From positions 1 to 64,000 of IMG/VR virus record IMGVR_UViG_3300028840_001802: 64,000 nucleotides of DNA; one strand, 5' to 3'. Under the pieces are notes generated by a model that saw nothing but the letters and a program-made list of their open reading frames with translations, did no database searches and was not told where the DNA came from. The translations under genes were made by a program, and so were the position numbers. Shown here piece by piece: positions 7,554-42,593 of the stretch. Source of the DNA: a virus. How positions within the stretch are numbered: the stretch's first letter is position 1; every line of letters starts with the position of its first letter.

Positions 7554-8237
7554 ATGAGCTTTTGCACAGGATCTGACCGTGTTTATCGCGACCAACCACA
7601 AGTCGTGAACCCATACTCCGAGCAGGGCGAGCAGGCCCGGCGGGGTGTTCTCTCGGCTCTCGGGCCGGCAGCCGGACGCGCGACTCTCGCCGCCCGTCAA
7701 GCCGGCGGTCTTGCACGTCAAGGCGCGTACTCTCCTGGATGGGGAGAAGCGCAGACGCTTGCTCGAGAAACCATTGGAGGCCGGTACCTCGGATCCAACC
7801 CATACCTCGAAAAGTCTTTAGCATCGTCCAGACGGGCCACTATGGGCCAGGCGGCTGACGTGGGCGGTCGGTTAGCCGATCAGTACTCACGGGCTGGTCT
7901 CGGTTTTTCGACCGCAAACCAGCAAGCACAACAAGGACAGATGGCAGCGACCGGAGCCCAGTTGTCGGCTCAAGAGGCCCAGGCCCGTCTGGCAAACTAT
8001 CTCCAGGAACGGCAGAATCAACAGCAGGCGGTTCAAATGCTTCAGCAGGCGACCGCTACCCCGGCCCAGATGATGGCCGCCGTTCCTGGGCTTGAGATGC
8101 AGCCGGTCAGCCAGGCCGCGCAGATCGCGCAGGGACTTGGACAGGACCAAGTGACGGTTCCCGGCTCCGCAGTCGTCAAACAACCTGGCGCGCTCGATTA
8201 CGGCATTGCCGCAATGGGAGCGATGCCCAACCTGTAA
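7554..8237 (+). CDS. Ala/Gln-rich ejection-type virion protein
   Basis: This 227-residue protein begins after a strong Shine-Dalgarno sequence (GAGGAGG). It is dominated by Ala, Gln, Gly and Arg, with a predicted long helix from about residue 90 to 190 (QAQQGQMAATGAQLSAQEAQ). It has no enzyme motif. Small Ala/Gln-rich helical proteins at this place, before a lytic or giant core protein, are typical internal virion proteins such as T7 gp14 or P22 ejection proteins. The assignment rests on composition and order, not on a recognised domain. Confidence 0.5.
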   Translation: MSFCTGSDRVYRDQPQVVNPYSEQGEQARRGVLSALGPAAGRATLAARQAGGLARQGAYSPGWGEAQTLARETIGGRYLGSNPYLEKSLASSRRATMGQAADVGGRLADQYSRAGLGFSTANQQAQQGQMAATGAQLSAQEAQARLANYLQERQNQQQAVQMLQQATATPAQMMAAVPGLEMQPVSQAAQIAQGLGQDQVTVPGSAVVKQPGALDYGIAAMGAMPNL

Positions 8238-8246
8238 GGAGAAGCC

Positions 8247-8756
8247 ATGCCAGTCGTTCAAGGAGCAGGAACAATTGGAGTGCCCGGGCTACCGGCCAAG
8301 AACAAGCGTGGTCAGATGCAGACGAATATGGGCGGGACCAAAGGCCAGGGCGTCGTTGGTGGGAGTGGTCCCTACAAGTTCGGGCAGATGCTGCGCAACC
8401 CGTGGGCGAACGCTATTCAACCTGGGCTCACCGATCCGATGCAACAAGGCTGGGCTGACTTTAAGCAGGGGCTCGCTGGATCGCCGTATGACCCGACAGC
8501 CGCTGGACTCCCGCCGTCCACCGCGATGGGCACTGGGGCCACACAAGTCCCGCAGGCGACGCAGGCCGTGCAGGCTATTGGCGGAGCCGGTGCAGTACCA
8601 CCTGCAGCTGCCGGCGCAGCCGTTCCGGCGGTGACCGGCGCAGAGGTTTTGGGAACTGGTACAGCCGCTCAAGCGGCCCAAGCAGCGCAAGCCGCTCAAG
8701 CAGCGGGAGCAGCCGGTGGCGCTGGCGCGGGTGCCGCCGCAGTTGGACCTTGGTAA
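8247..8756 (+). CDS. Low-complexity Ala/Gly-rich virion-associated protein
   Basis: This 169-residue protein starts behind TAAGGAG. Its N-terminal half is Gly-rich and ordinary; the C-terminal 80 residues are nearly all Ala, Gly, Gln and Pro, with a run of AAQAAQ repeats (about 8660-8705). No domain is recognised. It lies between two ejection-type genes and ends 10 bases before the next start, so it is most likely co-translated with them as an internal virion component. Confidence 0.5.
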   Translation: MPVVQGAGTIGVPGLPAKNKRGQMQTNMGGTKGQGVVGGSGPYKFGQMLRNPWANAIQPGLTDPMQQGWADFKQGLAGSPYDPTAAGLPPSTAMGTGATQVPQATQAVQAIGGAGAVPPAAAGAAVPAVTGAEVLGTGTAAQAAQAAQAAQAAGAAGGAGAGAAAVGPW

Positions 8757-37782: not shown

Positions 37783-37795
37783 AAATTGATTGCAG

Positions 37796-38272
37796 GGCGG
37801 GGAGGGGAATCGAACCCCCCTGTCAGGTCCGTTAGCCACTGATCAGGTGGCTCGTCGACCCGTTGACCGTGTGCTGCATTGGCAGAGTAGCCAAGAGGAT
37901 CAGTCCCAGCCTCTGGCAGCCGACTCACGGAGTTCCTTTCACTCAACCCGCCCATCTCTCACACCTGCTGTCAGGCCATTTCGGATCATTGGGGCGAGTC
38001 TATTCGACCTAAACAGCGATGCATCACTGCCCGCTACCCATTTATTCCACGTCAGCCCGTCGGCCACGCCGAGGTCCTCACTTTACACCAGTCAAGGCTA
38101 ACGGAGGATCCCCCGACGCCTGACAACAGGTGTGAGAGATGATGGTCGACCGCGCATCCCTGTAAGTGCGCCTTAGTCGCGAGCAGTCAGGCAAAGCGTG
38201 CTGCAAGGGGTAGCCTACCCATAAAGCTGGTCAATTCCAGCCTCCCGCCGACCATCAAACTGTCAAAGAACT
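37796..38272 (-). ncRNA. Large structured non-coding RNA with a tRNA-like 3' domain
   Basis: No gene fits here. On the minus strand the 3' end has a T-arm with loop TTCGATT flanked by GGGGG and CCCCT, followed by CCCCGCCC. Possible acceptor partners are GGGCGGG near 37947-37953 (with a GAGT/ACTC D-arm-like hairpin next to it) and GGCGGGA near 38250. AGCCAC-CTGATCA-GTGGCT forms a 7-base-loop hairpin. A 24-bp helix joins 38118-38141 to 37953-37976; its one non-Watson-Crick pair is G-U on the minus strand but C-A on the plus strand, supporting minus-strand RNA. Other hairpins lie at 38152-38171 and near 38233-38246. A promoter is at 38279-38306. Candidates are a divergent tmRNA, a tRNA with a large insertion or a large ornate phage RNA (GOLLD/ROOL-like). 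Confidence 0.6.
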
Positions 38273-38278
38273 GTAGAC

Positions 38279-38315
38279 AACCTACCACACTGAAAAGGGC
38301 TGTCAACTATCAATC
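38279..38315 (-). promoter_or_regulatory. Promoter for the structured RNA, with copy 2 of the GATTGAT box
   Basis: On the minus strand GATTGATAGTTGACAGC (38315-38299) contains the -35 TTGACA (38306-38301). A 16-base spacer and TAGGTT (38284-38279) follow, placing the start of transcription near 38272. Confidence 0.6.
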
Positions 38316-39026
38316 GAACTTTATTTTGCACGAACGACGGACCACCCGGGCGACCGCCCACGGGTTCCACTGGAGGGCGATCAACTCATTCCATTGCCTG
38401 GCATACTCTGGCAACGCCGTGCGCGAATAGAACCGGAGCTCTGCTTCCCACTCTTGGCGGAGCCGGTAGGCGGACGCCAGTAGCGAGCTCTGGAGCGTCC
38501 GGGCGATCTCCAGCTTGGTGGCCGGGCGACAATAGCGTCCGATCCGACGCACCCACCGGTTGGGCTTGTACTCGCGCTTTGGGTGTGGGTATGGTTCGCG
38601 AAATGTACTCCGCCTGAGCTTACCAGATTGACGCTCCCGCAGCTCACGCCACGATCTCCGCCCCGCTTCCCTGAGCTCGAGCTCTCGCGCCCGTCGAACC
38701 TCTGCGGCTGCCTTCTCGGCCCTCCTCGCCTCTCGTTCCATCACGGACTTGAGGTACCACCCCTTGGTGTGCAGCTGCTTGAGCAGGTCAACAGCCTCAG
38801 TGAATTCCGGAGTCCCGACGTCGCGAAGCGTGAATGGCGCTGGCTCGGGTATGTAGTCCTTCGTCCTGCGGCCAGGAATCCATTTGCCGGGTTTGTCCTT
38901 GGGTGTGCGATAGCGGGAAAGCCCTTTGCGCTCGAACAGCAGGACCGGGAAGTCCTTGACCGAGCCCCGTAACATTGGGTCGAAGTCCCGGGTCGGATAC
39001 GGATAGGTTGAGATCTTGTCTTGCAT
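38310..39026 (-). CDS. Basic hypothetical protein, 238 residues
   Basis: It is Arg/Glu/Pro-rich. Residues 100-150 are a charged helix (REARRAEKAAAEVRRARELE). The C-terminal third has Trp-rich helices (QWNELIALQWNPWAVARVVR). No domain is recognised. Its stop overlaps the promoter box of the downstream structured RNA. Confidence 0.6.
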   Translation of the reverse strand: MQDKISTYPYPTRDFDPMLRGSVKDFPVLLFERKGLSRYRTPKDKPGKWIPGRRTKDYIPEPAPFTLRDVGTPEFTEAVDLLKQLHTKGWYLKSVMEREARRAEKAAAEVRRARELELREAGRRSWRELRERQSGKLRRSTFREPYPHPKREYKPNRWVRRIGRYCRPATKLEIARTLQSSLLASAYRLRQEWEAELRFYSRTALPEYARQWNELIALQWNPWAVARVVRRSCKIKFD

Positions 39027-40781: not shown

Positions 40782-41660
40782 CTACGCGTTGATGGGGGAG
40801 AGCTTAGCGCGGATGAACGCAACTTGGAGAGCCATTATGAGGGCCGCGCGATTGAACCCGGCGGCGTCGTCCGTCGTCTCCATCTTAAGGAGCGCGTCGA
40901 GCACCGTGCGGGCTTCGTCGACGGGCAGCGTGTCGTTGTGGACCGTACCATCTCGCTCGCTCCACAGGACATTCAGCTGGCTGATAGGTTGGGCGGAGTA
41001 GTCGGCGTGGTTGGTTAGGTCCTCGTCCGGCGCGCTATCCTCGCCGGCCCGCTCGTTGATCTTCTCCGCCTCATAGTCGGCCGCGTCCTGCTCATCCTGA
41101 GCGGCAGCGGCAGCCTTCTCGGCGTCGCTGATAGCCTCTTGCTCCTCCACGTCGGTCGGCCAGACCTGCACTTTGGTCGGGCGATTGCCGAATCCGAAAT
41201 GCGGCTCCTTGGGCGTGATGGCCACGTTGAGTGTGATGCGGAGGTCCTTGATATCTACCTCACGCTCCATCGATGTGTCGTCGACGATCTGCGGGACACT
41301 CATCCATATCTTGTTGCCCTCGTCGGTTAGGAACAGCCCCTTGAGGGAGTCCCCGTAGGCCGTATGCACCTCTTTGTAGTGGACGAACCGGCCGACAACC
41401 TCCTGGCGTCCTGCGCGGAGCCGGGGAGCGTTGGCGAGCTTAGCCTCCTCGGCCTGGCGGGCAGCTGTCCGCTCCTCGAACCGGTCGATCTGCTTGGCCA
41501 CGCAGCGGGTATAGGCGTCGACCTGGCGTGTGCTAAACTCATCGACAGTAGCACCTTCGCGGGCCTGCCGGGTGATGTCCTGCAGGAATTCGCTCCAGTT
41601 GATGGCCGATGGATGGTCTTGGGCCCAGCTGATGGCCTCGGTGAATGATAGTGTGCTCAT
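40782..41660 (-). CDS. Hypothetical protein, 292 residues
   Basis: It has a helical N-terminus (1-95), a beta-rich middle (EVVGRFVHYKEVHTAYGDSL; NKIWMSVPQIVD), an acidic linker and a C-terminal helix. Similar phrases occur in uncharacterised phage proteins that I cannot name. It starts 3 bases after the small gene 41664-41843 and is probably among the earliest expressed genes. Confidence 0.6.
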   Translation of the reverse strand: MSTLSFTEAISWAQDHPSAINWSEFLQDITRQAREGATVDEFSTRQVDAYTRCVAKQIDRFEERTAARQAEEAKLANAPRLRAGRQEVVGRFVHYKEVHTAYGDSLKGLFLTDEGNKIWMSVPQIVDDTSMEREVDIKDLRITLNVAITPKEPHFGFGNRPTKVQVWPTDVEEQEAISDAEKAAAAAQDEQDAADYEAEKINERAGEDSAPDEDLTNHADYSAQPISQLNVLWSERDGTVHNDTLPVDEARTVLDALLKMETTDDAAGFNRAALIMALQVAFIRAKLSPINA

Positions 41661-41663
41661 AGG

Positions 41664-41843
41664 TTAGCCTTTCAAGTAGTCGTCGATGTGGGGTTTGTTG
41701 GTGAGATCCCCTAATTGAGGGGATTCGGAAAAGTTGGGCTCGTTTAGCGCGCTACGCTTTTCGACCGGCTCCGCCGGCTCCGCTACTTGGCGCATAAACC
41801 AGCGCGCGCCTCTCAAGCTCCTTCTGATATTAACTCGTGCCAT
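41664..41843 (-). CDS. Small protein, 59 residues, first gene of the minus-strand block
   Basis: ATG 41843 to TAA 41664 gives MARVNIRRSLRGARWFMRQV followed by AEPAEP, encoded by two tandem copies of the 10-mer, and an acidic C-terminus (PQLGDLTNKPHIDDYLKG). Immediate coupling to gene 40782-41660 supports it. A possible promoter (TTGCGC, 16 bases, TATCTT) lies upstream at about 41853-41880. No family is recognised. Confidence 0.5.
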   Translation of the reverse strand: MARVNIRRSLRGARWFMRQVAEPAEPVEKRSALNEPNFSESPQLGDLTNKPHIDDYLKG

Positions 41844-41903
41844 GCAGTCAAGATACGCATCTGGTGGAAAAGCGCAAGCACTTTTCTAAACTAAATTTTG
41901 GGC

Positions 41904-41922
41904 CGCGCTAGGCGCGTTTTTT
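41904..41922 (+). terminator. Rho-independent terminator in the divergent region
   Basis: CGCGC (41904-41908), loop TAG and GCGCG (41912-41916) are followed by six T residues. No plus-strand gene lies upstream. It may insulate the divergent region or stop antisense transcription of the early genes. Confidence 0.55.
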
Positions 41923-42026
41923 GATTTCAGGTGGGAAGGTACAGGAAGCCAACGAGTTGTAGAAATTAAGGGTCAAAAACAGTAGTGGGAATAGGTCAAA
42001 TGTTTATCGGGGGAAAGCGTTGCATC

Positions 42027-42123
42027 TTATAGGAATGAAAGTGTGAAAGAGAAATGCGTAAAAGGTCTTTACGCATTTCTCTTTCGTAAATCGTTTCCTT
42101 AGGAAAGAACTATATACTATAGG
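42027..42123. repeat. Palindromic 100-bp element, copy 1
   Basis: The core is a perfect 18-bp inverted repeat (GAAAGAGAAATGCGTAAA at 42045-42062, complement at 42068-42085) around AGGTC. A second palindrome centred on CCTTAGG and an ACTATATACTATAGGGGG tail follow. Copy 2 at 47094 aligns along its whole length but has the loop reversed (GACCT). It lies in the gene-free stretch between divergent blocks, where an origin or master control site would be expected. Confidence 0.8.
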
Positions 42124-42125
42124 GG

Positions 42126-42461
42126 GAGCTGAGGGTTGTCGTTTTTACAAAATGAGTGGGTTGATTGATCCCGGCGGAGCCGGTGACATGGGGGTGATAG
42201 GCGGAGCCGGTCGGCCGACTGCCTGGATGGGTCACCTGCAGCGGCCAGGCCACCCTCCTGCCATCCTGGGGCCCGGGAGGTCCCGAGCCCCCTCCTGCGC
42301 CGGCCGAGCCCGTAGCGGTCCATCTGGCGATCCCTAACCCCTGGAACGTGTGCCCACGCGAGACGCAAAGGCGTACCGGACATTCCCAGGGACGTCGATT
42401 AGCGTGAGATTGTCGTAAGTCGTTGATATTACGATGACTTGGGTGGACATGCCCTAAACTT
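42126..42461. other. Gene-free stretch with two 10-mer copies
   Basis: I see no convincing gene. Two copies of GCGGAGCCGG (42174, 42201) lie 27 bases apart. A plus-strand frame from 42201 to 42407 has a protein-like end (AVHLAIPNPWNVCPRETQRR) but no usable start codon, so it may be a decayed or frameshifted gene. Confidence 0.4.
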
Positions 42462-42593
42462 GCCAATATGTCCCAGGTCATCAAACGCCGTGCCAGTTGG
42501 GTGTATGCCCCCAATTTTGACTTGATTGGGTGAATACACCCAACTATCTTGAGCAGACGGTGTGCCACTCTGGCACAACCGAGACATATTGGC
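42462..42593. promoter_or_regulatory. Nested inverted repeats upstream of the plus-strand block
   Basis: Three inverted repeats share nearly the same centre. They are GCCAATATGTC (42462-42472) with GACATATTGGC (42583-42593), AGTTGGGTGTAT (42495-42506) with ATACACCCAACT (42534-42545), and CCCAAT (42510-42515) with ATTGGG (42525-42530). GTGCCA/TGGCAC pairs sit between. The last arm ends 7 bases before ATG 42600. It may be operator sites, a replication origin or a terminase recognition site. Confidence 0.65.

Follow-up and report, generated by a model that had tools for sequence, protein, structure and literature searches.

Few large structured RNAs have been described from phages, and what they do has yet to be explained. 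Among them, GOLLD and ROOL lie close to tRNAs, the linkers of GOLLD can hold tRNAs, and the 3' region of GOLLD is conserved in sequence (PMC12286853). We analyzed a stretch of viral DNA 64,000 nucleotides long (positions 1 to 64,000 of IMG/VR virus record IMGVR_UViG_3300028840_001802; hereafter the window), in which the minus strand from about 38274 to 37795, roughly 480 bases between a 238-aa and a 59-aa ORF, appears from its sequence to specify an untranslated structured RNA made by an uncultured phage. An initial annotation had found no credible reading frame here, and this is upheld by codon scores that are among the lowest of the window. The features of the locus are listed in Table 1.

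We compared this RNA with known families. At the gathering score, Rfam release 15 had no match for the RNA of the window or for its counterparts in two related phages (L046 and L064, see below), and the sole Rfam match in the search of the relatives' contigs was an ordinary tRNA on an unrelated contig. Up to E = 10, the window RNA matched nothing but tRNA-Sec at chance level (14.9 bits, E 6.2). Neither the window RNA nor L064 matched the models of GOLLD, ROOL and OLE at any score up to E = 10, and L046 did not match them at the gathering score. The initial annotation had likened the RNA to GOLLD and ROOL, and membership of either is not borne out by the models; its suggestion of a large structured RNA outside the described classes agrees with the Rfam search it had proposed (tmRNA, GOLLD, ROOL, tRNA), which returned nothing above cut-off. 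It had also been rightly cautious about tmRNA, for which there was no Rfam match up to E = 10 and no gene called by ARAGORN at default settings; the acceptor has G3-C70 rather than the alanine pair G3-U70, and no tag or resume frame was found in the RNA. Default ARAGORN gave no tRNA or tmRNA in the window and relatives, while relaxed settings gave many mutually overlapping calls on both strands. Two of these were judged to be noise: an antisense permuted match in tmRNA mode in which no tag was identified, and a tRNA-Gln(ctg) with an 83-base intron in intron mode, which is built on the acceptor, D and T arms described below. A BLAST search of annotated phages gave no match for the RNA of the window or L064, and no description of this RNA was found among the open-licence papers searched.

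Table 1. Positions of the predicted features of the locus within the window.
Feature	Position	Strand	Basis or remark
Element TGCAAAATAAAGTTCGA upstream of promoter	38314..38330	(-)	16/17 bases common to L046 and L064
-35 hexamer TTGACA	38301..38306	(-)	sequence
-10 hexamer TAGGTT	38279..38284	(-)	relatives: TATTGT, equal distance from conserved start
Transcript start CAGTTCTTTGACAGTTTGA, boxA core TTCTTTGA at 38270-38263	38255..38273	(-)	conserved
5' structured domain closed by UGAUGGUCGGC / GUCGACCAUCA	38140..38257	(-)	mean pair probability 0.83; z = -2.2
Long-helix domain	37953..38141	(-)	pair probability 0.98; z = -7.96
tRNA-like 3' domain	37795..37953	(-)	folding, arm search, ARAGORN intron mode
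Acceptor GGGCGGG / CCCGCCC, perfect 7-bp	37953-37947 / 37801-37795	(-)	
D-arm GAGT-GAAAGGA-ACTC	37944-37930	(-)	
Anticodon-like arm	37920-37873	(-)	
Variable-like arm	37862-37824	(-)	
T-arm, 5-6 bp T-stem	37819-37803	(-)	T-loop TTCGATT 37814-37808
Small ORF MKAKYRV..., 59 aa	37603..37782	(-)	starts 12 bases past tRNA-like end; without Shine-Dalgarno

The sigma70-like promoter described in the initial annotation has the letters given there, with a spacer of 16 bases between the hexamers. A promoter scan of the window did not list this site because TAGGTT fits TATAAT at only three of six positions, but the promoter is supported despite the scan because the related phages have TATTGT equally far from the same start sequence. 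Upstream of it, the element TGCAAAATAAAGTTCGA may be an UP-element or activator site. It lies 10 bp, or one helical turn, farther upstream of boxA in the window than in L046 and L064, with the distance from the -10 hexamer to boxA unchanged. In the window the element shares bases with the end of the 238-aa ORF, while in the relatives it is upstream of a divergent gene. Together with the preceding A, the transcript start shares 19 of 20 bases with L046. This start is read most simply as a host-type boxA, as in the ribosomal RNA leaders of the host, because TTCTTTGA occurs exactly in eight of the 15 Verrucomicrobial rRNA leaders tested, no more than about 400 bases upstream of the 16S gene; the leaders came from genomes of the order (Verrucomicrobiales) to which the bin with a terminase relative belongs. 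As in a boxA antitermination leader, the putative boxA lies close to the start of a transcript that is predicted to be untranslated. The boxA alone, an 8-mer, can arise by chance, although its position is conserved in the three phages; the two further copies of TTCTTTGA in the window are both inside long open frames. The structured RNA of the initial annotation stands, with a host-type rRNA boxA at its 5' end that had been overlooked.

The host of the phage is probably a member of the Verrucomicrobia, judging from the sole cellular contig found with a terminase relative, which is in a Verrucomicrobiales genome bin and is possibly a mis-binned phage contig. Shine-Dalgarno-like sites were present at six of the 22 starts checked in the window (few early leftward genes and several structural genes), and such sparse sites in early genes fit a Verrucomicrobial host. 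Wider searches for boxA-led RNAs were also made. A looser boxA pattern gave 45 IMG/VR contigs, mostly with a coding motif, and was rejected, as was one contig from the promoter-boxA pattern (L066) that looked like chance. An extended boxA-like pattern gave nine one-mismatch matches in 390 genomes of the phylum, none of them with a T-arm downstream. As a separate observation, two unrelated phage contigs with Bacteroidetes-type promoters (L072, about 6077, reverse; L089, about 8752, reverse) have the transcript start CAGTTCTTTGATAGTTTGA, followed by about 430 untranslated structured bases and then an ORF, and L089 has a second boxA-like site; these may form a separate class of phage leaders headed by boxA.

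The whole RNA folds with a z-score of about -4 to -5. Because the antisense fold has a z-score as low as that of the sense fold, folding energy leaves the strand undecided, and we assigned the RNA to the minus strand because the promoter, boxA, T-arm and synteny favor it. The 24-bp long-range helix of the initial annotation (38141-38118 / 37976-37953, one G-U) was recovered independently by BLAST as a 24-base inverted repeat at 96%, and the z-score of the helix domain (-7.96) confirms it; its exact pattern had no match in IMG/VR. At the 3' end, the T-arm with loop TTCGATT adjoining an acceptor is likewise present, and a D-arm accompanies them. In 40 shuffled windows (base composition kept in 300-base blocks, dinucleotides not kept), a T-arm with acceptor occurred at a mean of 0.05 per window, and the combination of T-arm, acceptor and D-arm occurred in none; the real window has exactly one, at the 3' end of the RNA. 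A five-arm cloverleaf (acceptor, D, anticodon-like, variable-like and T arms) has a predicted energy of -68.8 kcal/mol, within 0.4 kcal/mol of the best fold (-69.2 kcal/mol). The domain thus has the acceptor and T-arm stack of a tRNA (13 bp, 7 + 6) together with a D-arm, but it departs from a tRNA in length (159 bases), anticodon loop and model score (models below cut-off). Two of its 7-base hairpin loops, CUGAUCC and CUGAUCA (37910-37834), share the palindrome UGAUC(A), and pairing within or between RNA copies could be possible, as an observation from two cases.

A terminase search identified related IMG/VR phages at 45-77% identity. One of these, IMGVR_UViG_3300046463_000715 (G013, L046), matches the start of the RNA in the syntenic place and orientation, and a second relative, IMGVR_UViG_3300046454_000614 (L064), was found by the promoter-boxA pattern. 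In the stretches examined from the more distant relatives (45-64% terminase identity) there was no such RNA, and routes through neighboring proteins and the DNA polymerase gave relatives that were too distant or none. Only TGYAAAATAAAGTTCGA and ACAGTTCTTTGAnAGTTTGA can be aligned confidently between the window and L046/L064, and conservation is focused on the promoter region and the boxA-bearing ACAGTTCTTTGAnAGTTTGA. In L046 and L064, boxA is followed directly by a different 25-bp helix domain, then by a second domain and a T-arm with acceptor; the 25-bp helix is unrelated in sequence to the 24-bp helix of the window and is not a covarying copy of it. A covariance model of the relatives' helix domain had its best match in the window at a weak 5.5 bits, though in the right domain and on the right strand, and models of the two domains found nothing in 62 genomes of the order, a set with no positive control. 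All three RNAs end in a T-arm and adjacent acceptor, with acceptors GGGCGGG, GGUCCCG and UGCGCCA and tRNA-like domains of 159, about 105 and about 146 bases, most of them without a plausible anticodon loop. Within 330 bases of the RNA, L046 and L064 differ by 17 substitutions and several one-base gaps, and a reading frame is disfavored because of these gaps. The substitutions avoid predicted pairs weakly (P = 0.13 and 0.04, permutation, for two near-identical sequences), and an RNAalifold consensus of L046 and L064 has one compensatory pair and no break, but this view is biased because the structure was chosen on the same two sequences.

L046 and L064 are 98.7% identical upstream of the RNA and 96% identical downstream of it, yet their tRNA-like 3' domain and the next small ORF are wholly different (L046 5411-5633 versus L064 3339-3677). 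On comparison of these sequences, we interpret the tRNA-like 3' domain and the adjoining small gene as a cassette that is exchanged between near-identical phages. The initial annotation had recognized the tRNA-like 3' domain itself but overlooked this cassette-like difference. In L064, an additional stretch of about 80 bases also separates the first domain from the second and resembles a degenerate tRNA (GAGAGGT ... CCGGTTCGAGCCCGG ... GCCTCTC); neither this insert nor the tRNA-like unit at the 3' end of any of the RNAs is a recognized tRNA. About 2.5 kb downstream of the exchanged cassette, L046 has an HNH endonuclease gene (8090-8677, with weaker matches along the C-terminal half), and it is possible that this endonuclease drives local recombination. 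The ORF that follows the RNA starts 9-12 bases after it across the three phages, and that of the window had no family match. Elsewhere in the window, a 0.9-kb gap with very low coding potential (41660-42549) separates leftward and rightward gene blocks and contains a hairpin, AGAGAAATGCGTAAA...TTTACGCATTTCTCT, near 42050-42085.

We propose that the RNA represents a new family of phage RNAs, modular and structured, that stands at the head of a transcription unit, is antiterminated through boxA and is processed at its tRNA-like end, a proposal whose chance of being right we judge to be about even. Its starting points are read from sequence: a promoter followed by boxA, a structured stretch that is untranslated, an end resembling a tRNA, counterparts in synteny and a cassette that has been exchanged. 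From these we infer transcription, boxA use, Nus loading, readthrough, RNase P/Z processing, release and any action in trans. A sigma70-type promoter would place the transcript start some four bases ahead of boxA, itself a copy of the one in the host rRNA leader, and host Nus factors (NusB, S10/NusE and partners) would load on this boxA, so that RNA polymerase could cross the untranslated RNA into the operon without Rho termination. The RNA would fold into independently closed domains ending in an enlarged tRNA-like fold. This end is probably matured by tRNA-processing enzymes, with RNase P acting on the 5' side and RNase Z or E on the 3' side, and the cleavage would free the RNA from the mRNA and protect its 3' end.

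Antitermination by boxA and structure is known from lambda nut, with the HK022 put RNAs as a parallel, and the locus could instead be a purely cis-acting 5' operon leader, in which boxA and structure antiterminate, the tRNA-like end determines where the downstream mRNA begins or how accessible it is, and no free RNA product matters. That the RNA opens a transcription unit, next to a gene that is divergent in the relatives, is consistent with this, as are the absence of a terminator-like site after the RNA on the minus strand and the early genes mostly without Shine-Dalgarno sites. However, the RNA greatly exceeds known boxA or put leaders in length, and this reading would not account for the retention of a tRNA-like fold by three sequences unrelated to one another, so we regard a leader of this kind as possible but somewhat unlikely. 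We consider it rather unlikely that the RNA acts in trans in the manner of GOLLD and ROOL, as an abundant, folded and perhaps self-assembling molecule with loop-loop contacts, in which the tRNA-like parts are passengers or cargo and boxA only ensures synthesis. Its size, the tRNA-like units at the end and, in one relative, between domains, and the ability of the loops CUGAUCC and CUGAUCA to pair with each other or between copies would fit, but that pairing is a two-case observation, there is no similarity to the GOLLD or ROOL models, and the core sequence is not conserved between the phages, unlike the GOLLD 3' region (PMC12286853).

The RNA might also be a modular platform, in which a fixed boxA-driven scaffold carries exchangeable tRNA-like units and the adjoining small gene, perhaps as decoys or baits for host tRNA enzymes or tRNA-cutting defenses, though we see this as unlikely. 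It is improbable that the untranslated gap holds the decayed remains of a tRNA or tmRNA gene, or else a functional intron-bearing tRNA. The intron-mode call of tRNA-Gln(ctg) with its 83-base intron uses the same arms, but relaxed ARAGORN calls are many and mutually overlapping, standard runs gave no tmRNA match and no tRNA match above cut-off, and the three enlarged and divergent domains all keep their T-arm and acceptor, unlike decay. A phage attachment site carrying the 3' portion of a tRNA or tmRNA gene from the host is very improbable, for although an attP remnant usually consists of a T-arm and the 3' strand of the acceptor, the phage record gave no match to a tyrosine integrase or a serine recombinase, the acceptor's 5' strand and a D-arm are present too, and the element differs between near-identical phages.

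The putative phage RNA would tie large structured phage RNAs to host rRNA-type antitermination and to variable tRNA-like cassettes. It offers two testable handles on its role, mutation of boxA and exchange of the cassette between sister phages, as well as a promoter-plus-boxA search pattern (AATAAAGTTCG-N20-50-GTTCTTTGA) for phage RNAs that covariance models miss.

When compared with known systems, the RNA shares with tmRNA (SsrA) its length and a terminal T-arm and acceptor, but it has no G3-U70 pair, resume or tag frame or tmRNA match, its 5' acceptor strand lies beside the tRNA-like domain and not where the RNA begins, and a D-arm is present. It resembles rRNA leaders and lambda-type nut sites in that a boxA near the transcript start is followed by structured untranslated RNA, but in this case there is no rRNA, no boxB was found, and what follows downstream is an RNA specific to the phage. 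Class II and selenocysteine tRNAs also have acceptor, D, long variable-like and T arms, whereas the phage domains differ in their lengths (159, about 105 and about 146 bases) and long anticodon-like arm and are below every tRNA cut-off. Like GOLLD and ROOL, it is a large untranslated multi-domain phage RNA, and it has tRNA-like units at its end and, in one relative, between domains; unlike them, it is shorter, matches none of their Rfam models and carries a host-type boxA right at the 5' terminus, and its tRNA-like unit is 3'-terminal, is not a recognizable tRNA and differs between close relatives. The RNA is GOLLD/ROOL-like in kind and a member of neither family: the kind, a large tRNA-associated phage RNA, is known, and the new features are the putative boxA start and the exchangeable tRNA-like end.
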